The notes below the pieces were generated by a model, which saw only the letters and a program-made list of their open reading frames with translations, ran no database searches and was not told the origin of the DNA. Shown piece by piece: positions 176-32,092 of a DNA stretch of 64,000 bases. The translations under genes and the position numbers were made by a program. Each line of letters opens with the position of its first letter. Positions within the stretch are counted from its first letter, which is position 1. Source of the stretch: Antedon bifida (taxonomy: Eukaryota > Echinodermata > Crinoidea > Comatulida > Antedonidae); the NCBI GenBank assembly GCA_963402885.1, contig OY727100.1:15841395-15905394 (forward strand), in the 5' to 3' direction.

Positions 176-3100
176 CTGGTGCAATGCAATCCCCTGTCAC
201 CTTATCACAGGTGAGAGATGATAGACATTCGCATTGAAATTCACACTGTGTACCATAAAACCCAATCGGACATGGGGTCTCTGCCAAATATTCTGTAAAA
301 GAAAACAAGAATATCTTTATTTGCCTATCATATACAGAGTATAATCCCACTCTGAAGTATAATCATACTCCTAATTTAGGCTATTTTCAAACATAAGTCT
401 TTGGTAAATCAATTGGTGGTTCTGAGTACAATATTCATAACATATGAAAAGTGAAATTCTTATAGTATTTAAAAATCAATAGATATCTAAGAATTTAATT
501 TAAGTGGTATTCAAGAAAAATTTAAGGATAAATTTTCCTCTTATCTTATCCTTATATAAAATGGTCACTGAAACAGCAAAATAAATAATCTAATTGCGTC
601 TTATGAATATTCATATAAGAGTAAAATATTCATTACCATCACAAGTGTCACCTGTCATGCCGTTAGTACAACCACCAGAACAGCCACTGAAGTAAGTACA
701 TTGAGCATCGGGACAATCACAGTCAAACCGACAATCTGGACCATATTTACCAGTGGGACAAACTAAAACAAAACACATTTCAAAGGTGATTATAACACCG
801 TATTGCAACAAATGTAGCATGTCAAGTGTAGTTACCATATTAAATTTTGTAGAATAGAATAAACAGGTAGTATTAGCAACTCCAGTACACACGTTGTTGC
901 TGCAGTAGCAAGAGCTGCAGTATCAACAACTACAGTAACAGTTGTTGCTGCAGTATCAACAGCTGTAGTATCAACAACTGAAGTAACAACAATTGTTGGT
1001 GCAGTATCAACAGCTGTAGTATCAACAACTGAAGTAACAACAGTTGTTGCTGCAGTATCAACAGCTTACAGCTGTAGCATCAACAACTGCAGTAACAACA
1101 GTTGTTGCTGCAGTATTAACAGCTGTACTATCAACAACTGCAGTAACAACAGTTGTTGCTGCAGTATCAACAGCTGTAGTATCAACAACTGCAGTAACAA
1201 CAGTTGTTGCTGCAGTATTAACAGCTTACAGCTGTAGCATCAACAACTGCAGTAACAACAGTTGTTGCTGCAGTATTAACAGCTGTACTATCAACAACTG
1301 CAGTAACAACAGTTGTTGCTGCAGTATCAACAGCTGTAGTATCAACAACTGCAGTAACAACAGTTGTTGCTGCAGTATTAACAGCTGTACTATCAACAAC
1401 TGCAGTAACAACAGTTGTTGCTGCAGTATTAACAGCTGTACTATCAACAACTGCAGTAACAACAGTTGTTGCTGCAGTATCAACAGCTGTAGTATCAACA
1501 ACTGCAGTAACAACAGTTGTTGCTGCAGTATTAACAGCTGTACTATCAACAACTGCAGTAACAACAGTTGTTGCTGCAGTATCAACAGCTGTAGCATCAA
1601 CAACTGCAGTAACAACAGTTGTTGCTGCAGTATCAACAGGTGTACTATCAACAACTGCAGTAAACAACAGCTGTAGTAACAACAGTTGTATCAACAGCTG
1701 TACTATCAACAACTGTAGTATCAACAGCTGTACTATCAACAACTGCAGTAAACAGCTGTAGTATCAGAGTACCAACAGCTGTAGCTGTACTACTATCACC
1801 AATGAGCAGATTATCTCATCAAACTTACTTGATTCACATAAAAGTCCATAAAAGCCTCCAGCACAAGAGCATCCAAAAGGTGGTGGCCGACACATTATTT
1901 TATCTTTACAGCTGTCAGCAGAATCACTACATTTAATAGTACCATACTTTCCAAAATAATTGGTTGCATGTGCTGGAAAATAATATATCTAGTTACTGCA
2001 AAGAATGTGCAAATGGATTATTCATTATTACATTATTTTATATACAGTTGAATACCCATAGGACACTGTCTTCTGAATAGGGATTGCCCATAGGTTTAAA
2101 TTAAGCTGTCCCTTACTTGTTTCATGTGAAAGTGTCCCCTTAAGATGAATGTCTTCAGAATAAGGGTTGCCCATGTTAAATAATGTTTTGCCTGTGTCCC
2201 TTTATAGGGGTGTCCCCTGAATATGGCTTTTACTAGGGGAGGAGAGAGGGTTATTGTATTCTAAAAAATGGTAACTATGATACATACGTGTTTCACAGAG
2301 ATCACCAATGTATCCAGAGGGGCAGATACATGTACAAGAAGCAGGTTCACACACTCCACCATATTTACAGATTGGACATGTGTACCGACAATTAGGTAGG
2401 CCACACATCCCTGCAGGGCATTCTGTATGAACAATTTGGTTGTTTTAAAAATAATCCATATTATAACACACCTAAGTATATTCTTGTTATTTTTTGTGGG
2501 TCACATGATATTAAATAACTGTACAATAGCATTTTGTTTGTGTTTTCATTTTTGTTTCACAGTATAAGTATGCAACCACACATGAGTGTAGGCTGTTATT
2601 GGCTGATCATGTTCAAGCAAGCTGTAGTATCCACCATCTATAATTGTTCTACCGCACTCCCAAAATTGGAATGCCCTCTTTTGGTCTCTCATTAAAAATT
2701 GGTGTGTTATAAAACAAATAATGATGTTAGTGTAATGAACAAATAATTTCATTCAGTTTTGCCTCGTGAAAATATAACATTTCATTTTTCACCACATGAA
2801 ATTATTTGCACCATTCCACTTATAAATATTCATTATTTGTATAACAGTTGTGTCTGACCTGACCTGACCTGAGAAGCCACGCTGTGAATAAAGAGGCAAT
2901 GCAGTAGGAGTTCTGGCAAACAAGTCTTCTCCGACGGTAAATTGTTCGTTTTGGTCTATTTTCAAACACCTGTCTTTAATTGTAATCGGACCTATTTACA
3001 AGCTTTAAAGACAGTTACTAAATGAACATAAGTATGATATTGCCTTTACTACCTCTCACACTAAGCTGGAAAAATGCATGCATGTTTTCATCCCGTCTTC

Positions 3101-4052
3101 CATCTATGTAACATTCATAGATACCATCATCTTCAACAGTAGCGTTTGAAATCTTTAAAACTTCAAACCCATTGGCTGTAGGGATGTTTACTCCATTAAA
3201 ACTCCACCGAAGTTGTTGATTTTCATTCGCATTTGTTTGAAGCTGGACGTACCCGCCAGTCGATGTAACAACAAATGGATTCAATGGTAGAATATATGCT
3301 TCAATCAAAACAAAATGAAAATACAGTATGTATGTATTAAATTAAGTTAAAAATTGAAAACAGTTAGAATTTCTGTATCTATCAAATACAGCTGATGTCA
3401 CATTACCACGTAACATACCTGTGTTCCTATGCAAATGTGTATTGGTTTTCAAAACTAAAATTTCAATACTTTTTTAATTAATTTGTAAATTGATTTATAA
3501 ATCTGGACATTAGAGAACTAGCATGTGTGGTTTTGTGTATTTGTTAATATTTCATAGTCTAGGCAGTACCAAAAGGCATGTTTCAATACTCTATATTCAA
3601 TTAAAATAGTGTCGACCATTACACTAGGGAATTTTCTAAGTATTTACAAACCGATTGCTTAGTTTATATAAGCAAGTATAAAATAGTGTTTGACAAATAA
3701 TTTGCTGAGAAATTACCTCCAAGTTCCTGAATAAAACCTGTAATATTTATTGGCCTAGCATCATAATCTATTGGTATATACCGAGTCAAAAAAGGACCTG
3801 GACGAAGCTCTGCTGCACCAGATGACGGTAGTCTCAAGATTAACCTGCACAAGGTTTGACTCCGTATATTGATTGTGGTAGACCCAGCAAATAAAGTATG
3901 ACTCCAATCAGTATCCTCCAATTCCACATAATTGTGGGGTTCAACTAAGTACGACGCTGATATATGTGGTATTAGAGCACTGGTATCCTGTTGAACGTGG
4001 TATAAACTAACCCACTTGTTCTTCAAAAAAGCAGTAAGGTCCTGCGGAGGTT
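176..4052 (-). CDS. Tie-like module A: near-identical duplicate of module B, continues off the left edge
   Basis: Exons 4052-3717, 3298-3053, 2422-2288, 1972-1829, 762-637 and 292-176 have exactly the lengths of module B (336, 246, 135, 144, 126 and 117 nt) and nearly the same protein. In the Ig exon only a few residues differ (GGYVQLQ against GGYAQLQ; AFFQLSV against AFFRLSV). Introns are also alignable, for example 3300-3660 with 12300-12660. The last visible exon ends in phase 1 with a GTAGAA donor at 175, so more exons lie to the left. A haplotype duplicate in the assembly is the main alternative to a true recent tandem duplication. Confidence 0.75.
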
Positions 4053-7000
4053 CTACACAAGGTAAGAAAACAGAATAGTTTACTTTTCTGGATTTCCAGA
4101 ATGCAATTTCAATAGAAGGAATCACCAGACTTACTTAAAAATAAAAAAATAAGAGCATCTATTTTACCCAGCATTTTGAATAGAAGACTTGGGTACAAAT
4201 TGTAAACAAAGTTTTGTTCACATGAAACAATGCTCTTCTCTAGCTAATTTCAATCCATTGATATAAAGTTTGCAGTACACCATGTATAGTTCTGAAAAGA
4301 ACTGTTGAGTTTCTCGATGTTTTGATCAATATACTTCCTCAGGACATATGTACTGCAAATTTTATTGATTTCGCCATGCAAACCTTCAAACAATATATAT
4401 AGCTAACGTCTCATCCAAAAGACGGTGCAGTATCTACATGTATTCCTATCGAAGTTGAAACACACAAAGAGCGGAGATACGATTTGAATCTTGGACCAAA
4501 GGAAACTTATGGTCTTTCACAGTTCAGTGTTCAACACAGTGGCTACCACCAGTTTAGCTAACTGTGCTATGCCGCTCTCTCATCTTTTAATATAAATAAT
4601 TAGCTTTACAACATAAACATTAATTAATACTCTTACAGTAGTTATGCATATTATTAACCCATCTTAAGTGTCAGTAATTGACTATACGTAGAGGTTAAAA
4701 AGACTGTATACTTACGTAATAATATATCTGGTGCTGTAAAAGAATATATAATAAAAATAATGAGAAAACTCAATAAGTAATTTAACTAATAATGGGGTTG
4801 TAGCTTGGTGGTAAGATGTATGGTGACCAATTAAATAACGTCTCTGCAGGGGTAGGGCTTGAGTCCCCTCACCCCCATACATAGTTATCAACCTTTAGAG
4901 ATTTGAAATGCATGACAGACTACACCATTTTTGTGGTTGGGGGTGGGGGGGGGAGTGGGTTGGAGGGAAGGGGAGTTGAAGGAAGGGTGTTTTTCGCGTT
5001 TTACATTTATTTTTATATGTGTGGTGTTTATTACGAATACTTAAATACTCTTTTTGATAGATTTTTCCTCGACTAAATTTGCGTAGTGGAAAACAGGCTA
5101 CATTCAAACTGGTTTTGGTAGTTGACTGTATTAACTTACCTTGTGTTGTAGTAGGAGCTGTTGTAGTTGGTTCTGCTGTTGTAGTTGGTTCTGCTGTGGT
5201 AGTTGGTTCTTCTGTTGTAGTTACTAAATAAAACAAAAACATTGTGGTTGTACAATTCCACCAAAAGCCGTCAACATCCACCACAGTAACAAATAACAAC
5301 TATAAATTTTGTTTAAACAACTCCTGTCTATATCTTACCTACATAACACTCGCTGGTTACTCTGTCACAAGCCTTATTAGCTCCACATGGACATGTTAGG
5401 GTGCAATATTCTCCATAAAAACCTTGTTCACAACTTGTTGTATTTTGATCTAATAAAAATAAATAAATAAATATACTGTATACACTTCGTACTTTTCTGA
5501 TTTTCTGATGATTAATTTACTATAAGAAAATCTAATTGTCTATTACAATGTTATATTCCTCTATTTCACAGTTAAAAGCTATCAAGTTATCCAACATGTA
5601 CCAACAAGAATAATCTTTACAATGTCTGTTGTGTGATCCTTTTGTGTGATATAAAGCTCTGTCAAGACTATCAAACTAGTTTGTCAAAGTGTCAAATATG
5701 GTAGTGATATATGAGCACATCACATTTTTTTGTCACATAAAGTTTGATAGGGTATAGAGAGTTTTAATAATGATGTGACATACTGTTCTAGTCCTGATGG
5801 CAAGGCCTGAAGAAACACTAGTGTATAAAAAACATGATTTACAGAATAAAAAAAGCAAACTCATGCATTATAGTATGAGAGGTTTTAAATACTTACATGG
5901 TATACATTCACCGGTGGTTCTATTACAAGCCTGTTGAAAATCACATTCGCATTGAAGTTCACACAACTCACCAAAATCACCAATCAAACAGGTAGAGTCA
6001 GGGCCAGGATCTGACATTGAAATATTTAAATTCACATGTAACTATGTATACAATTTTCTAGTGCCTACTTAACTAGAAACTACCACAAGTTACTGTACAC
6101 TGTGAATATAATAATATTATATAACACCTAAATAAATTTAGATTTATTTATCAAATGTCATTTGATTGGACGATTGTGGGTCACATTGCGTGCAATAGTA
6201 CGCACTATTGAACATACTTTTTTTACTACTGTCAAAAACAAACCTTTGCAAGTGTCACCAATGAATCCATCTGTGCAGACGGAACCAGAAGCGCATCCAG
6301 CAACATAGTCACAGTCACCATCGCTACAATGACATTCAAGATCACAGTTTGGTCCATAATGTCCATCTTCGCACACTGAATTAAAAAAAAAATCATTGCT
6401 TTTTATTTACTATTATTAGAATTTCAGAGGTACAGTATCCTCATTTGACAGACTTTTGGTTAGCTTTGGGCACAATATCTAAGTTATTGCCTTGAAAAGT
6501 GTTTATAAAACTACAAACTGATATACCTGATCACACAAGTTAGTGGTTTTGGTACTGGGTCTGAGTTTAAATCTTTTTGTTAAAAACTGTTTCTAGTGAA
6601 AATGTTTTTGTACAGACAAGTTATTCTTTTTTTTTCATTTCATAACATTTATTTACAAATTATTCAACAAAAATAAAAGGATAAGAAAAATGATGATAGG
6701 TCAGAGATTGAATGCAGAGGCCCGGAAGGAGGGAAACAAACATCTTGAGGTGGGCGAGCTTTAAAAAAAAAAAGGGTTTTTGGGGTAACCATGTATGAAA
6801 TGACTGCATATGTAAAAGTTTACTTTGATCACAATTTTGTCCCATCCATCCAGACGCACAAATACAGCCGAGTGGATCCGGATAACAGAATATCTTTCCA
6901 CTACAGTTTCCATTTGGTTCTGAACTGCATGTTGTACTGCAATCTGTGCCAAACACATTGTCTCGTTCTTCACAAACTATAATTTCAAAAGGGATACAAA

Positions 7001-10000
7001 CAGTATCTTCATTAAAACACATATTTATATATTTACCTTTGGATTTTGACTAGATATATTCAGTGTATAATAGCAACCTTTTGTTTTCACATGCCACAAA
7101 ACTATGCAGCTGTGGAAAAGTCATTCTGTGCATATGAACAGTCGTGTGTGTGTGTGTTTTTTTTTGTTGGTTTTTTTTTTTTTTTACCATATTTAATGAG
7201 GGTGATCCATCCAGCAATTGCTGCTCATTAGGGACCCTCAGAGGTTCACAACACAACATTATACACAAGATGCTCTATATAAACAAAGTCTTATTACAAG
7301 TCTTTGGGAGTGGAGTTGTAATTGTGTCCTTAGAAAAAATCCTGACATATGACGGGACTTGAACCCAGGACCCTTGGAGTGGTAGCCAAGCACCATAACC
7401 ACCAAGCCACAACTCCACTCCACTCCACTGTGTGTGACAGGCCATTCCTGTGCTATAAAATGTACTTACCCTGGTCACACTGTGAACCATGAAACCCTCC
7501 TGGGCAGACACATGAGCAAGTATCAGCGGAACAAACACCTCCATTATAACAAACAGGACAGCGCTCCAAGCATCCTGGACGTCCACATAAACCACCAGGA
7601 CAGCCTGATAAAATATAAAATTACTGTATATTATGAGAGAGAATGAAAAAGTGTATATATTGTATTGATGAATTTTACAGTAACCCTAACCATAAAGACA
7701 GTCTGACCTAACGGCAAAACTGCAGTATAGCTCAATAGCTGAATATTCTTTCTTCATTGTTTTTATCTTTTTATCAGAATAAAATCATAAAAATTCACCT
7801 CTGACCACTACTCGAAAGTAGGCATGGGCTTTCTGGTCATAATCACCGTTTAGAAAACATTCATAAACACCCGATTCTTCAATATATGCTTTTGTAATAG
7901 TTAAGATTGGTAATCCATTTGCAAAATCCAAATCCTCTCCATTAAATTTCCAACGTAGATTCGCATTCTCTTCGGCATCTGTAGATAATTTTGCGAATCC
8001 GCCATGTGAAACACGGACTACATCTACTAAAGCGTTGATTGCAGCTAGTAAAAATAAATGAAATATTTAATCTATCAATTAAAATAATAAATCCAAAATT
8101 AACTAAATGTTTGTAATAGTGCCCTCTATGTTGTTTTTTTTTAAATATAGCTACATCTAAGGTTTGGCCATGTTTTATAAAATTATAAATCAAAATGTTG
8201 TTACTGCAGTACATGCAGTAGAATAATGACATGAACCTTAACATTTCCCTATTATAACCTTTACAATTAAAAAATAAACTACTGTGGTAAGATGCTGTTG
8301 AAGTGAGTAATAATTAGGGACCTTAGTATAGGCCAAAAATACGGTTAAAATGGCTGTGTTAAAAAAAAAATGTTGTGCAGCATTTGAATGGCAAGGCTAG
8401 GCCTATGCTGTACCACCAGGCAGGGCCAAGAGATTCAGAAGGGTTGCCGCAAAACAGGGGAGGGAGAGAGATGTTGCTATGCTAGCTGGGCCTATACACC
8501 CAATTTAATACACCAGCGTACTACTAACTACTGCCACTAATACTATCTAGGTAGACCTAGGTCTAGCCCCACTAGCCTATTATAGTAGTAGTAGGCATGT
8601 TGTCTTTGGCCAGTTGTGCGTAACTAGCAGGTGTGCGTAACTAGTACTGAAATGGATATGACGTTTATGTCTGTTTATGATTGTACGCTTCAGCGAACAC
8701 GGAATATCTGTCCTCCTCCCCTAATAGTCCCTATATCATTGATTATTATGTATACTGACCATTATTTGGGCGAAACCATGCTGTTGTCGTTGTCACAAAT
8801 CCATCAAGGGTGGCTGTACCAGTGAATGGTCCCACTCTTTGTTCTGCAGTACTTGAAGTTCCAACAACAACTTGAATAGAGTTTGTGTTTGCAGCATCAT
8901 CACTATCTGGAGCGATATCTGAATCACTTGAGAATGGACCATTACTTGAGGCAGTAAAATCCATGAATACTGAAGGATCATCTGTCAATGCAATAGTCAT
9001 TTCTACCGTTCGTGAATCTTTGAGAGAGTAGAATGTCAGCGTGACAGCAGGATCGCTTGACATGTCTGTCCATGGGGGGTCTACCACCAACACAATATCC
9101 ATAATTTCATCTACAGAAAAAAACAAACATATTGCAATCATGCAATTGAAAAGTCTCTAATGGTTATGCAACTAAATCGAAAACCAGTTCAGATATGGAA
9201 CCAGTTCACACAGTCCCCTTCCACTATCGAATAAATGTGATAATTTTGCATCAGGAACCAAAGTTAATTTGTCAGATTTGCTGCACTAGCCTGATGTAAA
9301 TGATAATTCACGGGTGGGACTCCAACCAACTGCCTCAAGATCATTAGCATAACGTTCATACCTGTACCTCTAAATAACCAAGTTACTAATGTACTGTGAA
9401 ATATCTTTGCATCAGGGACCTAAAGCACTCCTAATGAGGGTATATGTTTTAAAACTACACTACACTTTGTTGGGTCCATGAGGTGTCTCCTTAATAGGGG
9501 TCCTACTGTAGTATAGAAAGACCTGTAAAGATACATCAAAAAGTTTGTATTCTACCTGGTGCAATGCAATCCCCTGTCACCTTATCACAGGTGAGAGATG
9601 ATGAACATTCACATTGAAATTCACACTGTGTACCATAAAACCCAATCGGACATGGAGTCTCTGCCAAATATTCTGTAAAAGAAAACAAGAATATCTTTAT
9701 TTGTATAATCATATATATGATCCGAGTATTAATTCAATAATCCCACCCCACTAATTTTAGCTATATTCAAGTCAATTTGCATGTAATCCAAGTATAATCC
9801 CAAACAATTGTTATGTACACAAGTCAAGTTAAAAGTTAATATTCATAACCTGTGACTGTGTTCATCAAACACACTGAAGTGAAACACTTCCTTAAATAAT
9901 AAGTATTTCACTTAAGTCAATCAATATTTTTATAAATTTATTTATTACTTATAAAAGTAACATTTTGAAAAAAATTTTAAACTTCAAGGGTTTCCCTTAA

Positions 10001-13000
10001 TTCAATAATCCCGCATATTATGAATATTCATATAAGAATAAAATATTTATTACCATCACAAGTGTCACCTGTCATGCCGTTAGTACAACCACCAGAACAG
10101 CCACTGAAATAATTACATTGAGCATCTGGACAATCACAATCAAACCGACAATCTGGACCATATTTACCAGTGGGACAAACTAAAACAAAACACATTTCCA
10201 TGTGACCATAACGGAACTGGGTCAAATATAATCAACAACTGCAGTAACAACAGTTGTTGCTGCAGTATCAACTCTTGTAGTATCAACAACTGCAGTAACA
10301 ACAGATTTTGCTGCAGTATTAACTGCTGTAGTATCAACAACTGCAGTAACAACCGTAATTGTTGCTACAGTACTACGTCGAGTGGTCGAGTGGTTAAGGC
10401 AGGGGCGCCAGAATACAAACCATAAGTCATACAATCAACACAGGTTCAAGGCACTCCTCAATGATGGTTGTGTTTTTTTTTTTTTTTTTCTTATTTTATA
10501 CCATCTTTAAAAAATGTGGCCTATTCATTTCTAATGGAGGAACTGATCATTAAGTGGCATCAATATAATATAAAAACAAAAAGTTAAACCTTTAAAATTG
10601 TTGATGGATAAAAATATATAAATATTTAAAAAAAATGTTGTTGGAATAATTGTTTAATTTGAAATTTAACTAAAACTGGAATTCGAGTGTTAACAGATAT
10701 CACCCATGTGAACTTTAGAACCCAATTTCAGAAGGGTAGGGTCCAACGTATTGGTCCATTGCCGTAGACAGACAAATGAGTGTTGCTTGTTGGCAGCTGT
10801 ATGACTTCAATTAGTCTCAGCTGCTGCTGCTGTAGTAGCAACAGCTTTAGCAGTACCACTACAATCTACACCATTAACGATAGGTTTAATATCCCATCAA
10901 ACTTACACGATTCACATGCCAGTCCATAAAAGCCTCCAGCACAAGAGCATCCAAAAGGTGGTGGCCGACACATTATTTTACCTTTACAGCTGTCAGCAGA
11001 ACTACTACATCTAATAGTACCATACTTTCCAAAATAATTGGTTGCAAATGCTGGAAAATAATACATCTAGTTACTGCAAAGAATGTTTAAATAATTACAA
11101 CTGAATTATATTACTTTATGTTTTTATTATTGACCTTTTACATATACAGATAGAACCTTTTCAGGACACAAAAAAGTGTCCCCTGGATAGAAGTTTCCTG
11201 TGTAATGCCCTAATTATTTCCATGCGAAAGAGTTCCCTGAATAAAGGTTGCCTAAGGGTTGAAATATGTATTGCCTCTCGTTTGTTTCATGCAAAAGTGT
11301 CCGCTGAATATGGTTTATTGTATTACAAAAAATGGTATGATACATACGTGTTTCACAGAGATCACCAATGTATCCAGAAGGGCAGATACATGTACAAGAA
11401 GCAGGTTCACACACTCCACCATATTTACAGATTGGACATGTGTACCGACAATTAGGTAGACCACACATCCCTGCAGGGCATTCTGTACGAACAAATTAGT
11501 TGTTTTTAAAATAATGCATAACAGTTGTATTTCATCTTGCTTAATAGAGACTCGAGTGGCCATAATATCGGCAAAGTTTGCTAGCCACTCCTCGGCCATA
11601 ACTCTGGTGGTAGAACAAGTCTTCTCGGAAAAAGGTCAAGTGTACACTTCTGGGTTGTGTCCACTTAAAAAGAACTCATTGGATCTTTCGGTATGAGTAG
11701 GGTTACACCGGATTCCTGGTCCATTTTGAAACCTTTGTAATTTATTCATTTATATATTCCTTTCAGTGATACATAAAAAAGGGAGCACTGAGGAAAGACA
11801 AGAGCTGTCAAGGACAACTATCAGGACAAGTCTCTCCAACTCCAGACAAACAAACAATACAAGAAAAAATAAAATTAAGATTACAAGAAAAGACTATGTA
11901 CAATATGAAAATCAAATTTGTAACAATAAATGTATGAAAAATAAAAATTATAGTTGAATTATGTTGTTATTGTTACCTGACCTATCTACAAGCTTCAAAG
12001 ACAGTTTCTAAATGAACATAAGTATATTGCAAAGGATATTGCCTTTACTACCTCTCACACTAAGCCGGAAAAATGCATGCATGTTTTCATCCCGTCTTCC
12101 ATCTATGTAACATTCATAGATACCATCATCTTCAACAGTAGCGTTTGAAATCTTTAAAACTTCAAACCCATTGGCTGTGGGGATGTTTACTCCATTAAAA
12201 CTCCACCGAAGTTGTTGATTTTCATTCGCATTCGTTTGAAGCTGGGCGTACCCACCAGTCGATGTAACAACAAATGGATTCAATGGTAGAATATATGCTT
12301 CAATCAAAACAAAATGAACATACAGTATGTATGTATTAAATTAAGTTAAAAATTGAAAATAGCTAGAATTTCTGTATCTATCAAATACAGCTGATGTCAC
12401 ATTACCACGTAACATACCTGTGTTCCTATGCAAATGTGTATTGGTTTCAGTACTGTATGGGTTCAAAACTAAAATTTCAATACTTTTTTAATTAATTTGT
12501 AAATTGATTTATAAAAATGGACATTAGAGAACTAGCATGTGTGGTTTTGTGTATTTGTTAATATTTCATAGTCCAGGCAGTACCAAAAAGCATGTTTCAA
12601 ATACTCTATATTCAATTCAAATAGTGTCGACCATTACACTATGGAATTTTCTACGTATTTACAAACCGATTGCTTAGTTTATATAAGCAAGTATAAAATG
12701 GTGTTTGACAAATAATTTGCCGAGAAATTACCTCCAAGTTCCTGAATAAAACATGTAATATTTATTGGCCTTGCATCATAATCTATTGGTATATACCGAG
12801 TCAAAAAAGGACCTGGACGAAGCTCTGCTGCACCAGATGACGGTAGTCTCAAGATTAACCTGCACAAGGTTTGAGTTCGTATTGTGAGTGCCTGAGACCC
12901 ATCAAATAAAGTATGACTCCAATCAGTATCCTCCAATTCCACATAATTGTGGGGTTCAACTAAGTACGACAGTGATATATGTGGTATTGGAGCACTGGTA

Positions 13001-16000
13001 TCCTCTTGAGTGTGGTATAAACTAACCCACTTGTTCTGCAAAAAAGCAGTAAGGTCCTGCGGAGGTTCTACACAAGATAAGAAAGCAGAAGAGTTAACTT
13101 TTCTGGATTTCCCAAATGCAATTTCTTTTGCACAGGAAATTCATTTTATATAGGCAAGAATCTTTACGTAATTTGTTAGATTATTGGAGCATCAATAAAT
13201 AATGATGTCTTCTTTCAAAAGCATTATTTTCTAAAACCTATAGGATATATAAGTATTGTTATAAATAAAGGGTGAAAATCAGAAATCAAAGATAAATTGT
13301 AATTATCTTTTATACTATATAAGGTAACCTCTTGATTGTTATGCAATTCATTTATATACAGAATTTCCACATCTATCTCTCCTTTTTTCAGAAATAGTTT
13401 TTGATTTTATTATGTAATTCTTGTTGCTAGATTTAAACAAATAAAGAAATGAAATTTAATAAAGTCTAGTTTCAAGATGCTGTCAAGTCGTACTGTCTTT
13501 ATTTTACCCATTTTATCATATTATTTTATTATGAAATTGTTTATTTTTATGGTGTTTATATTTGAACGCGAGCCAGAGTTCTTGACAACATAAATAAATT
13601 ATATTGAATGACTGACAACCTAGTAAAGAAAAATCTTATTACATTACACAATTATGGAAATACTTTTTACAAAAAAAGATAAAGATATAACGATAACTAA
13701 AAAATAAATTTGAAAGTTGAATATTATACAGATATTGACTGCTTAGAGGTTAAATATAAGATTTGACATCCCAGAGGGAATGATATTTTGTTCGAGGGAA
13801 TATATTTCCTCAAACAATATATCATTCCCAAGGGGTTGTCAAATCTTATATTTTACCGAGATAAAAGGCGATATCTGTTATATTACATAGCCAACAACAA
13901 GTTGAATATCTACTGCTGGATCGAGTGTAGCTAGGCCTCCTTTGTAATAAGCCTGCTGATGATGTGAGGTCTGGGCTGTCGATTTGAGAGGAGCGAATTC
14001 GGCAACTCTATTTAAACGTCAACTTAAAACTCTTCTTTTTAATTAATTACTAAGTAATGTTAGGCGCTCTGTTCTTTGTAGGGCGCCATATAAAAACTTT
14101 TATAGAATAGAATAGAATTGTGACCAATACGGGTGCACCACAAGGCACGGTATTGGCACCTTTCCTTTTTACGTTATATACATCCGACTTTCGATCCAGT
14201 CATGTTGACTGTTCAATAGTTAAGTTTGCTGATGATACTGCATTGCTTGGGCTAATACGGTACGATAATGACAGTCATTATAGGACTAAAATTGTTAAAG
14301 ATGTATTGACAATTGAAACACACAAAAATCAAGGTCAAAATATTCTAAATTTAAATTGGCCATATCAAAGTAATATATAAGTTATCCACTTTAGGTCGAA
14401 AATTCAAGTCAAAAACAATTAGTTTACGTAATTAACAGGTAAATTAATTTGATTACATTTCGTCTGGAAAATCGTCGCGAGCGAAAGTAAACAAAGATTT
14501 CAAACCACGAGTATGCATTATGCAGGATTGGGAATCGTCACAATTGAGAAGGTGTTTTCACACAGATCGCGAGGAAGTTTTATGATTATGCATACAGAGT
14601 TGCATTATGAGATACGTTTTGATCGAAAACTTTGACTGGAAGTCAAAGTTATTTTTTGAAAAAAAAATGTCTGTATTTCAGTTAAATTTTTGGACTCATT
14701 TTTGATGAAAGTTAATAACTATTATGATACTTCAAAATGACCCACTTTTTTCGAAATATTGTTATTTTTATTTTTTTGGAATTAGTCAAAGGGACAATAC
14801 ATCTTTAACTTTGTTATTAGTATTGTGAAGATAACTACCTTAAACTTAATATTACCAAAACTAAAGAACTTGTAATTGATTTTCGTAAACATAAAATAGA
14901 GACTGAAGTGGTCGTAATTTATAATACTCGTGTTGAAAGGGTCATTTAAATATTTAGGGGTCGTTTTCGATGATCAACTTCAATGGGGAGATCATATAGA
15001 TAGTGTAATGAAAAAACTTAACACTTGTTTGTATTGCCTTCGTAAAATGAACGACTTTCATGTCAGACATGAAATCCTTACTATGTTCTACCAATTCGTT
15101 ATTTGTGGTGTATGGGCTTATTGTATTACAGCATGGGGTAGTAACGCGTTGAAAGAGGACTTGGTGAGGATCGATCATAAAACAAAGAAATTAGGTAATT
15201 TAACAGTGGCTCTAGTCTGCAAAGTGTTGAGTCTGTTCACCACACACGTGTGATGAGACTGTTCATGTGTATCCTAGATGATAATAGTCATCCACTTCAT
15301 GATAGGCTGATCTATTATACCTAGAAGTGGTAGGATGCGACTGCCATACTCCCGCACTAATCGTTATCGTTATTCATTTGTCCCAATGAGCATCAAGTTT
15401 TTCAATATGAATTATATGAGATAATGCACAGTGTAATAAAATTATATATTAGATTAGTGATAGCAATAATAATTACAATAATGACGACAAAATTAATATT
15501 TTTAATTGTTGTTTAAATGTTACCATTTTAATGTCACATGTTCATGGCATAGTCAAAGTTTGATTTTATTTATTTTAATATTTTTTTATAGTTTTTTCGT
15601 TTATTCAAAAAGTAGCTATAATTATTCAAAGGTTTTCCCTGTGTTAACATTGTAAGAACAGTCACATAGAAATGTATTGGCCACAATGGAAATAAGGGCC
15701 ACAATGGAAATAAGTTTGACCTTTGGTTACTTTTTTGTGTTACCCTGAATTCATTCTTTGTATTTTATATGTTGTGTTATTTTGTGAATTCGAATAAAGA
15801 AATAAAAAAATAAAAAAATAAAAATAAAATATAAGTATGGGTCTGCATTTTGGGGATATCAGATCTTTAAAAGACTGTATACTTACGTAATAATACATCT
15901 GGTGCTGAAACAGAATATATAAAAAAAATCATGATAAAATTCAATAAAACAAGTAATTGGGGTTGTAGCTTGGTCTTAAGATGTTTGGTGACCAATTAAA

Positions 16001-19000
16001 TAACACAGGAGTCTCTTCAGGGGGTAGGGCTTGAGTTGCCATCACCTTCTTTTTGACAGCTAAAATGACATTATATATTGTTTGAAGGTTTGCATGGCGA
16101 AATCAAATGTTGATATAAAGTTTGCGGTACACCACATTATATTAGTTCTGAAAAGAACTGTTGCGTTTCTCGACGTTTTGATCAATATGCTTTGATTCTC
16201 ACTCCTCAGTTCTTTTCAGAACTCAACAGTTCTTTTCAAAACTAATATAAAATGACATTATTAACTACTTTTTTACCACTTTTTTTTTGACAGATTATTA
16301 ATATTATGTTAGCGCATCCCGATTTGAAAAATCCTGGATCCTTCTAACAGTTTATACTTACCATTTGTATAGTTACAAATATGCAATTAAAAGTATTTAA
16401 AATTATTCCAAATACAATATAAAAAATGGTAATAAAAATATAGAATCTATGTTATTCCTTATGACCATTTACACACAACGCGGGCGGTTTCCGCTCAGGA
16501 TAGATAGAGATTATATGTAGAATAAGTTTTCCGCTTACCGTTACTGCCCGTCTGTGTAAATTGGCCTTTATTTTGTTGTGCTGCATAGGTAGCCTTGTTC
16601 GTGCAAATGGTCTACTTTTTCAAGTTTTTTCAAATACCAACATATGGTTATCAAAAAGCGAAAAGCGTATATGATTTTTTCCATGAATTTATAAGACCTG
16701 ACGCGAGTTGAAAGCATCAGCTTATGCGTAATAATTCATATTTCATCATCTAAGTCATTTCCACTGCTGCAAAATTCAAGTTTTTTTTGCTTCAGCGTAA
16801 TTAGTAGTGTTGAATGGATTTACTTTTTGCAAAGCGAAAAAACAAATGCGCAACCAATCAGAACCCAGGAAATAAGTTACCTCACCATCTTGAGAACTCA
16901 TGTACATAGAACAGTTTAGCAAACAGGAAATAAAAATGAAAATCACAGTTACAGTTTTCGCTCTTCTAGTGATAAATAATAAATGGTAGTGTGATTTTTC
17001 TGTCTTTGAAAACATTGGATTGCCACAATGCAATTTGCAAAGTGGAAAACAGGCTAAATTCAAACTGGTTTTGGTAGCTGACTATATTAACTTACCTTCT
17101 GTTTCAAGCATAGCTGTTGTAGTAGGAACAGTTGTCGTGGGAGCCGTTGTAGTAGGTACAGTTGTCGTGGGAGCCGTTGTAGTAGGTACTGTTGTCGTAG
17201 GAGCAGTTGTTGTGGGAGCCGTTGTTGTAGGAGCGGTTGTAGTTGGAGCAGCTGTAGTAGGAGTTGGATGGTCTAAATTCAATATAAAAATAAACAACAA
17301 ACTATAATTTATATTACATATTTTAAAGATGTATTGTCCCCCTGAAAAAATAATTCTTAACAACATTTTTGTTGGATATGCCATTTTAATGTAACATAAT
17401 AGTTATCCACTTTGACCAAAAATTGGATCGAAAACAAATGTATTTACCTGAAAAAAATGTAATTTAAAGAAAAAAATGGCCAAATTGGCTGCCAGCCAGT
17501 GGGTTTTTGGTTGAAATTGACCATTTATTTTGTCAATTTATAAGTGAAAACATTATTTTTTTTTTTTTTTTCGATGGAAGTGATTAACTTTATTAAAACT
17601 ACAAAATAACCTATTCAAAGTCTGATTTAATAAATCTTCATTTTTCATGTTACATGTTACAATACATCTTTAAAGCCAGTGTCATTTTAGCTAAATTTGA
17701 TAAACTTGTTTAATTAAAAAAGCATCATCTTTTTTCTTAGGTCAGTTTAAAAAAACATTATATTTGTTTGTGCATATTTTTTTGTAAGATGAATAAAGCT
17801 TCTTCAGTTTTTTAAAGCAATAATTATTTATATTGTTGAGTATGCATTGCATATGCTCTTCTGGTTCTGGTTCCTAGTATACTGGTCATTTGAGAACATT
17901 CATATCAAACATTTGTATATACGATACTGTATATGATATTTTATACATGATCAATTCCCTAGTTCTCTTTATGACATCATCAATAATGGATATAAAAGTG
18001 TGCCCAACTAAAACATGTTAACCAAGTTTTTTTCACCTTTCATTTCAATTTTTCATGTATTATTAGGAAGGTTTCGCAACCTTACGAATACGATAACGAA
18101 AACGGATACGTCACACATTTGTGAAACTTTTGAGCTGATCCCCACTTCATATTCGTAAAGCGTATTCCTGTTGACGAAAATCACCATTCATATTCGTAAC
18201 TACAAAACGAGTATAGTTTTTGATCTATTTTGCACATTTTGCATTTGAATCAGGAATGATTCATGATTATAATATAATTATAGATTTATTGAAAGTAATT
18301 TACTAAAGTAATTTACTAAAATGCCAGGTCAATTTTTATAAATAGCAGTTTTTAAAGTCCTCACTCGCTTTGATGTTACGCTAGGCCTAGGCAGCCAAGC
18401 ACAAAGCAACACGTACCTGCGCTTCGCTCAAATATACCGCAGTCATATTTTGGATGACGCCCTCAATATTTCGTTGCCGTGCGAAACAGATTTTTACTGG
18501 CTTACGAAAACGAATACGTGTGCGTGACGTATCCGTTTTCGTTATCGTATTCGTAAGATTGCGAAACCTCTCTATTATTGACAATTATTCCACTGCAGTT
18601 ACTACATTTTGTTTTACTGTACTCTCAAATCTGTAAATTATTTAGCATGCTTTTTCAGGTATTCATACTGTTTGCAGTAAACTTTGAAACAAACTAAAAT
18701 CAGGCATTATTGCTGCAGTAAGAAAATGTAGTTACTGCAGTAACTGCAACAGATCCCTTATCAATTAGAACTGTAGTATTAATTTTATACCTTAAACAAC
18801 ATTTTGAATTGAATTACTATAATATGAAGTATACTCACCTTCTCTACAACATACATAACTCTTTGAGTTACAGGATAAAGCTATCCATTCTTGTTCTTTA
18901 TTCATGTAGGCACAATCAAGACCGGAAGACGGCTCATCCGCTTTCCAGGCTAAATGGATATTAAAACAATGTTAACATAGCATAGGTTCTAGACGGTGAT

Positions 19001-20420
19001 TCTACTAATGATAAAGAGATAAACATTTCGGCACATTTTGCATTTCATATGTACTGTATACAACTTGGGCTTGAAAAAAAAATCTAAATGCCAACTAGTG
19101 GCAATCATATTAAAGGAATACCATGGAAGGTATGGCCTGGAAGTCTAAAGCTCTGTCTACACTCTCAACTTTGTGATGTACATATATATGGACACTACCA
19201 TATTTGGGCACATCACACTTTTTTTTAAACTAGTTTGTAGTGTAGTCAGGGCTTAAGTGTTAACAGTGTAAAACAGTGGCAGATCTCAATAAAACACAAA
19301 TAAATCAGTCAATAAGATTAATCAAAACAGGGCAGCCAGGGCAAACTTTCAGAAAACACTATTATTTATATAAGATGTATTGCCCTATAAAACATAAACA
19401 ATGAAGATTCATTTTTAAAAAAGGCTTTGAATAGGCTATTTCACAGTTTTAATTAAAATGGCATATTCAACAACAAACATTATTTTTTCAGGAGAACAAT
19501 ATATCTTTATCTTAATCTTAATTAATTAATTTCTTATTCTTTTTTATTTTTGTTTATAATTTTTTCCTTTTCACCTGTAAACACCGCCTCTTGTCCAGTT
19601 GCTGCCCAAGTCCATGCTCCATTTATTTTACAAATACCCAAAAGTATTGGATCGTCATTTAGCAGATTAGCAGCTAAAAAAGTATTTATTTCTGGAGATT
19701 CAATGTAGATGGGTACACTGACGCCACCACGAGTGGCGCGGCTGTCACAGTGACCATTTGTGACAAACTGATTGTAAGTTTTGTCCTTGTCTTCGAAATG
19801 AAAAGTAATGTCATCAGTATAGTCTGTTACAGTCCACGGTGCTGTCACTGTAAACAAAAATAAAACAGGGTGATTTTTGTGTCAGTCTACATACTGAATG
19901 CAAGGGTTTTTGTTATTTGAAAACAGTATCATACTCATGCTGTAAAGTTTGGTTCCCACTGGGACGCAATGCAAGGACATAAGCGCAACTCAAGTATTTT
20001 GACCAATCACAAATGATGGATTATTCGAAAAGCAAACTCCCAGCTTAATAGCACAATTTAGTTTTCAGGACACGTCACACTACTACTTATCTATCAAGTC
20101 GAAAAGTCATTCTACACAAGCATAAACATCCGTAAATTCCCAGCTTAATTGCATCATTTCGTTTTTTCATAGTGCGTCATAAGACTACTAATATATCAAG
20201 TCAAAAAGTTATTCTACAAAAGCTCAGAAAATGACTGTTAGGCTCAATATCTGCTTTAGTCGTGTGGCATGTCATTAAAATGAAACCTCACTATAAATGT
20301 CTAATTAAAAAGACTGCTATTAGAATTGAAAAGTGTACAAATATGAAGAAAAAAAATGTCTAACTTACCCATAGTTGCACAAAGAATTGTACTCAAAACA
20401 TAAGTTTTTAGGTGAAACAT
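176..20420 (-). CDS. CTLD / mucin / triplicated Tie-like Ig-EGF receptor ectodomain (3' end outside window)
   Basis: A multi-exon gene assembled by phase. Exons in transcript order: 20420-20369, 19847-19575, 18949-18839, 17272-17096, 15904-15887, 13067-12732, 12297-12052, 11482-11348, 11050-10907, 10179-10054, 9672-9556, 9110-8760, 8044-7799, 7604-7470, 6976-6824, 6375-6244, 6010-5897, 5449-5339, 5223-5140, 4733-4716, 4052-3717, 3298-3053, 2422-2288, 1972-1829, 762-637, 292-176. Every join is phase 1 and in frame, giving about 1394 residues with no stop and no transmembrane segment yet. The domains are a signal peptide, a C-type lectin domain, a Thr/Pro linker, then three Ig-like plus EGF modules. 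The EGF exons follow the order and Cys spacing of the Tie receptor EGF block, for example the GCSCAGGFYG and FCYPDPLGCIC segments. Secreted or membrane-anchored cannot be decided here. The domain calls are firm; continuity as one transcript is inferred. Confidence 0.8.
890..1795. repeat. Intronic 51-bp minisatellite (GTTGTTGCTGCAGTA / CAACAGCTGTAGTAT)
   Basis: About 17 imperfect tandem units of 51 bp, rich in self-complementary words (CAGCTG, CTGCAG, AACAACTG). It sits in the intron between exons 1972-1829 and 762-637. The unit is a multiple of three, so several strands and frames stay open for 140-210 codons, but there are no splice sites in phase with the neighbouring exons. Confidence 0.85.
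4716..5223 (-). CDS. Second Thr-rich linker exon and second 18-nt microexon
   Basis: Exon 5223-5140 (28 codons) encodes VTTTEEPTTTAEPTTT and further PTTT repeats ending APTTTQ, a shorter and more acidic version of the earlier linker. Exon 4733-4716 is 18 nt and gives APDILL; its acceptor and donor match those of the first microexon. Flanking intron sequence (about 4690-4870) also matches 15870-16040, so the linker-microexon unit was duplicated with its introns. Confidence 0.72.
5339..9110 (-). CDS. Tie-like module C (divergent copy)
   Basis: Seven exons form a second, diverged module. Exon 9110-8760 (117 codons) is an Asp/Ser/Thr-rich beta domain (DPAVTLTFYSLKDS, GPFTGTATLDGF). Exon 8044-7799 is an Ig domain with LRWKFNGEDL and IEESGVYECFLNG, and like the module A and B Ig exons it is exactly 246 nt. 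Exon 7604-7470 (135 nt, EGF; CYNGGVCSAD) matches the 135-nt EGF of the other modules. Then come 6976-6824 (FCYPDPLGCICASGWMG), 6375-6244 (GHYGPNCDLECHCSDGDC), 6010-5897 (GDFGELCELQCEC) and 5449-5339 (GFYGEYCTLTCPCG). Equal exon lengths alongside diverged sequence indicate an older duplication than the one giving modules A and B. Confidence 0.75.
5653..5765. mobile_element. MITE family M1 copy
   Basis: AAAGCTCTGTCAAGACTATC to TAAAGTTTGATAGGGTATAG, with GTAGTGATAT and GCACATCACA inside. Intronic. Confidence 0.6.
7178..7433 (-). mobile_element. tRNA-derived SINE (family S1), reverse orientation
   Basis: Read on the minus strand it starts GGAGTTGTGGCTTGGTGGTT (A box region), has a B box (GGGTTCAAGTCCCG), a body ending in ATCACCCTCATTAAATATGG, and a poly-A tail seen as poly-T at about 7156-7186 on the plus strand. 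A near-full second copy lies at 54243-54493. It sits in an intron of the lectin/Tie-like gene. Confidence 0.75.
9556..13067 (-). CDS. Tie-like module B: beta/Ig-like domain, Ig domain, four EGF-type exons
   Basis: Six exons. The first, 13067-12732 (112 codons), is a beta-rich domain at the position of Tie Ig1, with TDWSHTLFDGS and GAAELRPGPFLTRYI but without a clear Cys pair. Exon 12297-12052 (82 codons) is an Ig domain with LRWSFNG and VEDDGIYECYIDG; it has the late Cys but a weak early one. Cys-rich exons of 45, 48, 42 and 39 codons follow: 11482-11348 (ICKYGGVCEP, CICPSGYIGDLC), 11050-10907 (GKIMCRPPPFGCSCAGG), 10179-10054 (CPTGKYGPDCRFDCDCPD) and 9672-9556 (CPIGFYGTQCEFQCEC). The order matches EGF1-3 of Tie1/Tie2 plus one extra half-EGF. 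All borders are phase 1. Confidence 0.78.
10230..10372. repeat. Short copy of the 51-bp minisatellite in the duplicated intron
   Basis: The same GCAGTAACAACAGTTGTTGC units appear at the matching place in the module B copy of the gene, but only about three units remain. A tRNA-derived SINE head follows directly from about 10373. Confidence 0.8.
10373..10490 (+). mobile_element. tRNA-derived SINE head (family S2)
   Basis: GTCGAGTGGTTAAGGC resembles a pol III A box and ACAGGTTCAAGGC a B box, followed by a poly-T tract. The same head and its body occur at 49482-49770, and a body fragment lies at 11570-11722. Confidence 0.55.
11570..11722 (+). mobile_element. SINE S2 body fragment
   Basis: It shares GGTGGTAGAACAAGTCTT and the ACTTAAAAAGAACTCATTGG-type segment with the longer copy at 49482-49770. 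Intronic. Confidence 0.55.
13745..13860. repeat. Long imperfect palindrome (hairpin)
   Basis: TAAATATAAGATTTGACA at the left pairs with TGTCAAATCTTATATTTT at the right, and GGGAATGATATTTTGTT pairs with an AACAATATATCATTCCC arm. It is either a small MITE or a stem-loop; intronic. Confidence 0.6.
13970..14118 (+). mobile_element. LINE 3' end fragment
   Basis: A short frame reading RSANSATLFKRQLKTLLFN ends at a stop and is followed by AGGGCGCCATATAAAA and a (ATAGA)n tail. That is the usual C-terminus and 3' tail of CR1/L2-type LINE ORF2. It is 5'-truncated and abuts the next LINE relic. Confidence 0.6.
14119..15832 (+). pseudogene. Degenerate LINE reverse transcriptase, interrupted by a MITE
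   Basis: 14120-14380 encodes GAPQGTVLAPFLFTLYTSDF and KFADDTALLG, the RT finger and catalytic FADD-type motifs. After about 440 bp of foreign sequence the frame resumes with EDNYLKLNITKTKELVIDF (about 14836-14890), then FKYLGVVFDDQLQWGDHI and YQFVICGVWAYCITAWGS (14945-15160), the RT C-terminal region of CR1/L2-like LINEs. It ends near AATAAA/(AAATA)n at 15795-15832. Frameshifts and missing endonuclease make it a dead relic in an intron of the lectin/Tie-like gene. Confidence 0.75.
14370..14817. mobile_element. MITE family M2 copy inside the LINE relic
   Basis: It ends in GGGACAATACATCTTTA, matches the GTTATCCACTTT and AATTGG segments of the copies at 17324-17672 and 53812-54110, and splits the RT reading frame. 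The left end is eroded. Confidence 0.55.
15887..17272 (-). CDS. Thr/Pro mucin-like linker exon and 18-nt microexon (first copy)
   Basis: Exon 17272-17096 (59 codons) encodes about ten repeats of the type APTTT/VPTTT between HPTP and AMLETE, a likely O-glycosylated stalk after the lectin domain. Both borders are phase 1 (TTTAG acceptor, GTAAG donor). The next exon, 15904-15887, is only 18 nt, with a TTTCAG acceptor and GTAAGT donor. Joined in phase it reads APDVLL and leads into QPPQDL of the next exon. An equivalent linker and microexon recur further downstream in the same gene, which supports both as real. Confidence 0.75.
16440..16576. mobile_element. MITE family M3 (GGCCAATTTACACAG ends)
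   Basis: It is bounded by ATAAGG..CCATTTACACA on the left and TCTGTGTAAATTGGCC on the right, with internal CGGGCGG and GCGGTTTCCGCTC. A related copy is at about 44185-44312, also beside ATAGATTCTGTATT-type sequence. Confidence 0.55.
17324..17672. mobile_element. MITE family M2 (TAAAGATGTATTGTCCC ends)
   Basis: It begins TAAAGATGTATTGTCCCCC and ends ACAATACATCTTTA, with shared internal AGTTATCCACTTTGACC and AACCTATTCAAA segments. There is no ORF. Intronic, next to the mucin exon. Confidence 0.7.
18063..18566. mobile_element. ~500-bp inverted-repeat element
   Basis: The left end GGTTTCGCAACCTTACGAAT and following CGATAACGAAAACGGATACG are mirrored at 18515-18562 (CGTATCCGTTTTCGTTATCG, ATTCGTAAGATTGCGAAACC), giving arms of about 45 bp. 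There is no transposase ORF, so it is a non-autonomous MITE. It lies in the intron between the lectin exon 3 and the mucin exon. Confidence 0.75.
18839..20420 (-). CDS. Signal peptide and C-type lectin-like domain (exons 1-3)
   Basis: Exon 1 (20420-20369) encodes MFHLKTYVLSTILCATM, a basic then hydrophobic leader, ending in phase 1 at a GTAAG donor. Exon 2 (19847-19575, 91 codons) and exon 3 (18949-18839, 37 codons) together form a C-type lectin fold. The signs are SPEINTFLAANL (helix 2), GAWTWAATG (the WxW region), AWKADEPSSG at the ligand-loop position, and the closing cysteines in LDCAYM, ALSCNS and YVCC. The canonical EPN/QPD sugar motif reads EPS, so calcium-dependent sugar binding is uncertain. 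This is the only lectin domain in the gene and it is N-terminal, so it probably faces the ligand. The start is chosen as the only ATG giving a leader joined in frame to the lectin exon. Confidence 0.8.
19147..19254. mobile_element. MITE family M1 copy
   Basis: AAAGCTCTGTCTACACT at one end and AGTGTAGTCAGGGCTT at the other, with TTTGGGCACATCACAC inside. Intronic. Confidence 0.65.
19370..19512. mobile_element. MITE family M2, short copy
   Basis: Ends ATAAGATGTATTGCCC and GAACAATATATCTTTA, with TTTGAATAGGCTATTT and AAATGGCATATT inside. Intronic, beside the lectin exon. Confidence 0.55.
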
Positions 20421-30375: not shown

Positions 30376-32092
30376 ATAGAGTTAAAGGTATGCGACCAAC
30401 TGTGTTTGGGGTTCACAGAATTATACGTCCACCTTTCCACTACACATCATGAGGCGACAAATCAATGCATCTGGTGATGTGCTGGAAACGACCCCAAAAG
30501 GCTGTGGTAGGGCCTTAGTGCTGAGGCAGGGAGAGCACATTTAACATCTTTTTTTAATTCTTTATTTAATTTTTTTTTCAACCTGTATTCGATCTCGTAA
30601 ATTTAACAAGGTTAATATGATATTTATGATGTAAGGATGAATTACGTAATACACGTATAAATAGACTATTATCAGATGTTTAGTCATGTACTACTTTGTG
30701 GCGTAACGAATAATGCTCAGGGTTGGGTGCTTTCAGCTCTAGTAGATTGGGTTCGAACCTCTACGGATACTTTTTTTAATGGAAAATAATGAATATTGTT
30801 TTTTCTTTTATTTTGAAAAAGAGATATTTTGAGGGTTGTGAATGTCAGGCCTAAACAAGAGGACCTTTTTTAAAATCAGAAACAAAGTTGCATGGTATTA
30901 TTTTCCATTAAATAGACTGCCATAAAACCTCGAAAAGAAGCCCATGTGCTCCTTCATTTTTAATCTTGGCTGCGCTTCTTTTCCACATGGAGTTCTTTTC
31001 GAGATTACTTTTGCAAACTAAGAGGAGCTGCTGGGTTCCAAAATGTTTTATTTACATGATTTGTACAATCGTCTAATGTAAAGATTAACAACATCAAGAT
31101 TTAACAGTGTGGCGTGTTGACCGCGAATGGCTAACATACCATCTCCCTCATAATTCACCTGTACAAACTCATTTGCATAACAACGTCGCACGACATACCA
31201 AACTGTTTAAAATAGAGCTGCAAGGTCCCCGGAAATAACATCTATTATTTTTTTTAACAACATGTATAAGAATCTTCAGTACCCCGCCATGCTTGTGGAT
31301 GAGCAAAGACAAAAATAGAGCTGCATAGGTTCCCGCCCGAAAAAAATGCACTTTACATGATTTGAAATTATATGAAACAAAACTATATAAGACTCACCAG
31401 GACAATAGAGCTTGTCCCCGGAAATTGCACCTATTCATTGAAATATGAAATTAAATATTATTCTCTAGTACTAGCCCACCATGGTTGGGGCAGACAAACT
31501 ATCTGTTTAAAACATGTTTATGGGACGGTGCGGCCATACACACCAAGTACCAAAAACGTTTATTCATAACATATTACTCGGACATTTCGCTACCAATGTA
31601 GAAACATTGATTACAAAATCAAAATTTAACAGTGTGGCGTGTTGACCGCGAATGACTAACAATACCATCTTTTCCACTACACCTGCACAACCATTGCATA
31701 ACAACGCACGGCATAGCATACCGTTTCGTACACCTGCGATGAAAATATTAAATTCAATTTCTTTTAAAATTGAGGGCGGTAAACATAAAATTTAGAAGAT
31801 CGAATACAGGTTGGAAAAAAAAATTAAATAAAAAAAAAGATGTTAAATGTGCTCTCCCTGCCTCAGCACTAAGGCCCTGCCACAGCCTTTTGGGGTCGTT
31901 TCCAGCACATCACCAGATGCATTGATGTTGTCGCCTCATGATGTGTGGTGGAAAGGGGGACGTATAATTCTGTGAACCCCAAACACAGTGGTCGCATACC
32001 TTTAACTCTATTCCACCGACCAGCGTGGGAATCGAACCCACGACATACGTGTTGTAAACACGACGCTCAGACGACTGAGCTAACTGATCATT
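30363..32092. mobile_element. Inverted pair of tRNA-derived SINEs
   Basis: 30363-30597 and 31797-32030 are near-identical inverted arms of about 235 bp. Shared words include GAGTTAAAGGTATGCGACCA, GCATCTGGTGATGTGCTGG and GCTGAGGCAGGGAGAGCAC. Both end with an A/T-rich run and the CTGTATTCGATCT segment. Each has a tRNA-like head at its outer side. Read towards each other they could fold into a long hairpin. Confidence 0.7.
32018..32092 (-). tRNA. tRNA-Val(UAC)-like SINE head with a complete cloverleaf
   Basis: On the minus strand a full cloverleaf can be drawn: 7-bp acceptor stem GATCAGT/GCTGGTC with two G-T wobbles, D arm GCTC..GAGC, anticodon loop TTTACAA (anticodon TAC), and T arm GTGGG TTCGATT CCCAC. 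The outermost anticodon-stem pair is a T-T mismatch. It is fused directly to the SINE body, so it is more likely a SINE promoter than a working tRNA gene. Confidence 0.5.

Follow-up and report, generated by a model that had tools for sequence, protein, structure and literature searches.

The lectin and Tie-like exons on the minus strand of a 64,000-nucleotide stretch of DNA (the window; C13:15841395-15905394, within a 315.6-Mb genome of 27 contigs) very probably constitute the N-terminal part of one giant adhesion GPCR gene. Because exons of the same strand continue beyond the left edge of the window into LamG and EGF exons, a GPS motif and a class B 7TM region, the product is most probably an adhesion GPCR, for which the full order would be signal peptide, CTLD, mucin, module A, module B, mucin, module C, module B', mucin, LamG-like/EGF, GAIN/GPS, 7TM and stop. 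The preliminary description of this DNA had named a kinase, a bare membrane anchor or secretion as the possible endings; what lies to the left of the window on the same strand is a fourth outcome, a GPS followed by a class B 7TM. Ectodomain and 7TM fall on one polypeptide in a frame-consistent predicted chain of 74 exons that has no internal stop. Positions left of the window are written -i, which corresponds to C13:15841394 minus i, and 60 kb leftward was examined.

Between 20420 and 176 on the minus strand, 24 exons can be joined with AG at all 23 acceptors and GT at all 24 donors, including the last at 176. All 23 junctions are in phase 1 and the frame is stop-free over 1382 codons, which bears out the proposal that signal, lectin, mucin and module exons join entirely in this phase. 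The order in the window is signal peptide, CTLD, mucin exon, modules A and B, a second mucin exon and module C, where each module starts with a beta-domain exon (here X) and an Ig exon, followed by EGF1-4 in A and C and by EGF1-5 in B. The three module runs originally described are present; that count is extended by a fourth module left of the window, a five-EGF make-up for module B and the second mucin exon at 5223-5140.

Exon 1 (20369..20420) holds the start codon and the signal peptide MFHLKTYVLSTILCATM, and has the best donor score among nine signal-like start exons found in a search down to -30 kb, some of which share a start codon or overlie known exons. The CTLD is divided between exon 2 (19575..19847) and exon 3 (18839..18949), and exon 4 (17096..17272) encodes a Thr/Pro-rich mucin-like linker homologous to linker 2 (5140..5223) and its flank. 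Module A consists of X (12732..13067; modelled with low confidence and as beta strands only), Ig (12052..12297), EGF1 (11348..11482), EGF2 (10907..11050), EGF3 (10054..10179) and EGF4 (9556..9672), and module B of X (8760..9110), Ig (7799..8044), EGF1 (7470..7604), EGF2 (6824..6976), EGF3 (6244..6375), EGF4 (5897..6010) and EGF5 (5339..5449). Module C, in which X (3717..4052), Ig (3053..3298), EGF1 (2288..2422), EGF2 (1829..1972) and EGF3 (637..762) are duplicates of those in module A, closes with EGF4 (176..292), the leftmost exon in the window, beyond which the predicted gene continues for about 28 kb. The intron before module A contains a reverse-transcriptase-like fragment (14111-14380, plus strand) that scores just below the Pfam cut-off. 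Elsewhere the window carries a LINE-like reverse-transcriptase open frame of 994 aa (32452-35436, minus strand), a tRNA-Val gene (32016-32090, minus strand) and a neighbouring gene with ankyrin-repeat exons (53114-53458 and 55879-56652, minus strand), which presumably resembles ANKS6.

The sequence profile Lectin_C of Pfam matches exons 2-3 with an E-value of 4.3e-7 (31.1 bits against a cut-off of 22.6), which identifies the CTLD fold. Classical sugar-binding C-type lectins carry the sugar and calcium motifs EPN or QPD and WND. Exon 3 reads EPS and WIA at what we take to be the usual EPN and WND positions, and classical sugar binding is therefore not predicted for this CTLD, the ligand of which may, judging from these residues, be something other than a simple sugar.

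Leftward of the window the predicted gene proceeds on the minus strand with the fourth module, B' (-204 to -3284), all seven exons of which are predicted in phase 1; one exon prediction places the EGF2 acceptor of B' 30 bases earlier than in B, and the chains and divergence counts given here use the B position. A 1.4-kb gap with two predicted phase-1 mucin exons, one at -3405, separates B' from a long block of predicted LamG-like and calcium-type EGF exons that starts from about -4711. The GPS motif follows, placed at -23899 to -24025 by exon prediction and at C13:15817393-15817497, minus strand, by a genome-wide GPS search; the closest Tie exon belonging to the window gene is 23 kb from it. 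Predicted transmembrane exons then extend to about -27.9 kb. Everything left of B' comes from a custom exon finder, and the peptides compared with Pfam and PDB were joined by hand. On these joined peptides the class B-type 7TM model 7tm_2 matches with 9.2e-26 (91 bits against a cut-off of 20.6), GPS with 3.9e-12 (3.4e-13 in a further comparison), EGF with 4.8e-10 and Laminin_G_3 with up to 5.8e-13, the last above cut-off in two of three pieces and just below it in the third. The best PDB match of the joined 7TM peptide is ADGRD1 (1.9e-31), and ADGRL3 scores 5.6e-31. The GPS sequence CHCYHFTAFAVVM contains the site HF|T, in agreement with the His-x-Thr/Ser rule (HxT) for GPS cleavage. Ahead of the 7TM, Pfam matched GPS and gave no match for the GAIN model; the strands that precede the GPS are, by eye, what we take to be GAIN-like.

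The stricter of two exon predictions gives 71 exons in total and 3,883 codons with one terminal stop, and lacks most transmembrane exons; the laxer one includes the transmembrane exons, but one of its junctions creates an internal stop and several of its small exons are weak. A hybrid chain, stricter up to the GPS and laxer for the 7TM, begins at the start codon, takes in the 7TM and counts 74 exons and 4,022 codons, the last of which is its only stop. Since the stricter and laxer predictions differ, the GAIN and 7TM parts have provisional exon borders. The look for transmembrane, FN3 or kinase exons left of the window, proposed with the preliminary description, yielded the first of these in the form of 7TM exons, and neither kinase nor FN3 exons in this gene.

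A tandem second gene with the same order of CTLD, LamG-like, EGF, GPS and 7TM-like exons lies at about -32.5 to -56 kb (C13:15785394-15808894). Its CTLD (3.6e-5) and GPS (9.3e-11) are both above the Pfam cut-off and its LamG-like exons are conserved. Its transmembrane exons show partial conservation relative to the window gene, and the joined piece matches GPS only and not 7tm_2. Left of -3298 the search gave no match to a Tie module, so that this paralogue is without detected Tie modules. The CTLDs of the two genes differ in exon make-up, and a common descent of the two is a possibility. The simplest reading is of an ancestor with the order CTLD, LamG, GPS and 7TM, one copy of which received mucin and Tie modules between CTLD and LamG. 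The Tie modules were probably gained by phase-1 exon shuffling between these parts of an older receptor, the form of which probably survives in the neighbouring paralogue.

One gene may nevertheless give several products, with alternative ends or starts that yield soluble lectin-Tie ectodomains beside the full receptor, a possibility that we regard as worth entertaining though on balance improbable. A signal-like exon with a phase-1 donor (4174-4126, minus strand) stands just before module C, which makes a second, shorter product possible; a stop can be read after the mucin exon at -3405, and skipping of phase-1 exons leaves the frame intact. Neither candidate is strong, and AT-rich introns yield exons of this sort by chance. 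It is unlikely that the predicted chain instead spans two adjacent genes, one for a lectin-Tie protein, secreted or mucin-like, that ends after B' or the mucin exons, and behind it one for a separate LamG adhesion GPCR. The join between the two parts is made by predicted exons and not by transcripts, the frame of the mucin exon at -3405 can alternatively be followed to a stop, and the paralogue is itself a CTLD-LamG-7TM-like gene without detected Tie modules. Against this, just 1.4 kb lies between B' and the LamG block, with the two predicted phase-1 mucin exons inside it, and no signal-like start exon is listed in this gap by the criteria used. Moreover the LamG block of the paralogue is led by a CTLD, and here the CTLD ahead of the LamG block is the one before the Tie modules. 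A single adhesion GPCR gene is the reading followed below.

The segments mucin-A-B and mucin-C-B' are tandem copies. A and C form a recent duplicate pair with protein identities of 89% for X and 98% for Ig, and between B and B' the identity per exon is 94% for X and 97-100% for the others. This closeness (94-100% per exon for B and B') would also be expected if the extra modules C and B' were an assembly error and no true tandem duplication, which is very unlikely. The introns differ by mismatches and indels, the reverse-transcriptase-like fragment is present in one copy only, and a 51-bp repeat in the intron between EGF2 and EGF3 differs in length between the copies, being much longer in module C (857-1763) than in module A (10169-10423). 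The coding differences are, unlike those of an assembly duplicate, concentrated at non-synonymous sites of X. In the pairs A/C and B/B' taken together, the pooled X exons have 24.5 non-synonymous and 5.5 synonymous differences (pN/pS 1.36) against 13.5 and 26.5 in the pooled Ig and EGF exons (pN/pS 0.14; Fisher p = 2.4e-4 for the contrast), with EGF2 of the A/C pair an exception within the scaffold (8 non-synonymous and 2 synonymous changes). The Ig/EGF scaffold is under constraint and X is not. Positive selection on X is not supported, pN not being above the pooled pS (p = 0.27), and X is therefore claimed as unconstrained and no more; a pN/pS near 1 fits a variable contact face and also a loss of constraint. 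Such a ratio raised the question of whether X is non-coding at all; the equal lengths of X in both pairs, where the introns carry indels, and the splice sites and open frames kept in all four copies count against this.

X has no Pfam match above cut-off, the best being a phage-sheath beta domain on X of module B (E 0.042, 14.7 against 31.4 bits). Its identity between A and B is the lowest of any exon (22%, against 41-51% for the others), and the likeness of the two X sequences to one another is weak (z 1.4 and 1.7). Homology to Ig1 of Tie2 was tried for X of A and B and rejected, with z-scores of -1.2 and 2.0 in global and -0.6 and 1.2 in local shuffles, and an hhalign comparison of X with Tie2 Ig1 gave a local match of 1.9% probability located in Ig2. 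X could conceivably be a very diverged Tie Ig1 all the same. Two AlphaFold predictions for X, from a three-row alignment and from a single sequence, contain beta strands only and have mean pLDDT values of 41 and 39, too poor to use.

The likeness of the remaining module exons to Tie is specific. Against PDB sequences module A finds Tie2 first (7.9e-28), ahead of teneurin (4e-7) and SCARF1 (6e-4), and module B likewise finds Tie2 first (5.7e-31), with teneurin next (4e-6); EGF1-3 of module B alone match Tie2 with 4.5e-24. Among EGF families with solved structures Tie is clearly favoured, and the possibility, raised at the outset, that a scavenger receptor would fit better is contradicted by the SCARF1 score for module A. 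No MEGF10 chain appears among the PDB matches listed for module A, module B and EGF1-3 of B, a comparison that covers solved structures. The EGF exons of A and B were also scored one by one against every EGF of Tie2 and two teneurin EGFs, using shuffles that kept the cysteines fixed. In all six cases exons EGF1, EGF2 and EGF3 score best with EGF1, EGF2 and EGF3 of Tie2 respectively, and EGF4 and EGF5 look generic, EGF4 of module A being teneurin-like. EGF2 aligns with the Tie2 stretch that holds the layout FCxPxPxGCxCAxGxxG, as the preliminary description had recognized. The Ig exon aligns with Tie2 Ig2 at its end only (PDB search; z 3.3-5.5 in shuffles), so that the Tie order Ig2-EGF1-EGF2-EGF3 is present with Ig2 aligned at its end only. 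In Pfam the Ig exons of A and C have sub-threshold Ig scores, the Ig exon of B has no Ig match up to E = 1, and the Tie Ig1 family, for which Pfam presumably holds a model, is not listed for modules A, B or C up to E = 1.

The order Ig2-EGF1-EGF2-EGF3 and the EGF2 layout are thus common to this gene and Tie2 (TEK), and Tie1 has the same order and layout. Unlike Tie1 and Tie2, this gene has four copies of the module, X where Tie has Ig1, and extra EGF4 and EGF5 exons. The Ig3 and three FN3 domains that follow the EGFs in Tie are absent, their place being taken by the next module, mucin or LamG exons, and the gene ends in GPS-7TM and not in Ig3-FN3x3-kinase. That the window gene is a Tie-family receptor tyrosine kinase with its kinase to the left has almost no probability, the modules being Tie2-specific but the next 28 kb holding LamG, GPS and 7TM exons with no tyrosine kinase exon among them, and the nearest kinase place (PF07714) lying 3.4 Mb off among the 123 places examined of 153 best-candidate matches. 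The earlier idea of a Tie-derived receptor stands as regards Tie-type, collinear Ig-EGF modules with a lectin head in frame; descent from a whole Tie receptor is unsupported. A recognition or adhesion receptor with a lectin head, as had been proposed, is probably the right kind of protein, given this qualification.

Tie-type exons occur widely in the genome. A search with module B gave 111 matches, and besides the window gene the Tie-type matches used form at least 14 places, 11 of them with at least two matches. These 14 places are clustered, on C1 and C7-C13, with for example 18 matches at C10:6.52-6.79 Mb, and several matches within clusters have equal scores, which suggests recent tandem duplication. 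On C1, EGF repeat matches also lie in two very long, apparently intronless open frames (C1:5014358-5019088 and C1:22760321-22762981; 1622 and 1069 aa). The 15 Tie-type places, window gene included, were compared with 89 of the 122 best-candidate GPS matches of the genome, and among these only the window gene has a downstream GPS on the same strand within 50 kb; a link of Tie-type modules to a 7TM receptor is seen at this gene only, within the same scope. Other nearby GPS matches lie on the opposite strand (C8:13.03 Mb), upstream (C7:23.80 Mb) or, on the same strand, 82 kb downstream (C7:9.16 Mb). The GPS search also revealed closely packed GPS motifs, all on the same strand, at C16:5959562-6266918, where receptor genes with a GPS are probably arrayed in tandem. 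Among 123 of the 153 best-candidate kinase matches none comes closer than 100 kb to the 15 places, the nearest being 146 kb away (C8:33.58 Mb).

Three Tie-type places were sampled for 10 kb downstream each. In all three the EGFs are followed by an FN3-like exon that scores below the Pfam cut-off (0.0042, 0.0036 and 2.6e-4), and no GPS, 7TM or kinase match occurs in these three stretches. One of them, L046 (C13:14459189-14469188), has two C-type-lectin-like stretches, one above cut-off (9.9e-8) and one below (0.0017), and EGFs with Tie2 as best PDB match (3.6e-7). It shares Tie-type EGFs and C-type lectins with the window gene and differs in continuing with FN3-like exons; the combination of lectin and Tie-type EGFs therefore occurs at least twice.

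In the adhesion GPCR family the GAIN domain cleaves itself at the GPS, and ligand or force activates the receptor through a tethered agonist. By analogy with the family, and from the predicted sequence, the GAIN domain of the present receptor would cleave itself at HF|T while the ectodomain remains attached. Raised off the cell by the mucin stalks, the ectodomain could use its CTLD, X/Ig and LamG faces to bind a partner carried by another cell, by matrix or by a microbe, the Ig-EGF runs serving as a stiff scaffold and X as a variable contact face. A pull or release would then uncover the tethered agonist TAFAVVM and switch on the 7TM.

The nearest solved relatives, ADGRD1 and ADGRL3 (class B2), have in common with the predicted gene an HxT GPS, a secretin-type 7TM and a long adhesive ectodomain. 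LamG/pentraxin-like domains are known in the adhesion GPCR family, and a CTLD and four Tie-type Ig-EGF modules, as predicted here, are not named in the portions of that review available, which include its human figure legend (PMC13197933). Amphioxus adhesion GPCRs share with the predicted gene C-type lectin and Ig domains in their N-termini (Lectin C-type and Ig I-set, besides SRCR and kringle), for which domain shuffling has been suggested, and the available portions of that account mention no Tie-type modules (PMC2246102). A literature search over titles and the beginnings of abstracts, with its coverage largely outside the subscription journals, returned no description of a protein that combines CTLD, Tie modules and 7TM. 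Within this literature the architecture is as unfamiliar as had been stated from the window: CTLD/Ig and LamG on adhesion GPCRs are already known, and for Tie-type modules on a GPCR no report was found.

A tentative and more speculative reading of the genome-wide distribution is that the X-Ig-EGF module of Tie type is a recognition cassette that moves freely and independently of the Tie kinase; it would have spread to many clustered genes, repeatedly next to C-type lectins, and in one case onto an adhesion GPCR. The fast X on a conserved scaffold would then be as in a receptor for self/non-self or microbe recognition, here signalling via G protein. Tie receptors are regarded as kinases of the vessel system. 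Here, the ligand-side module of Tie is found fourfold on what is most probably a GPCR, with Tie-type exons scattered in clusters across the genome, and it becomes testable from this whether the module predates the Tie kinase and the angiopoietin system or is independent of them. The predicted gene also illustrates how far the ectodomains of adhesion GPCRs may be rebuilt by phase-1 exon shuffling, and its fast-changing X over a conserved scaffold provides a concrete candidate for a recognition surface.
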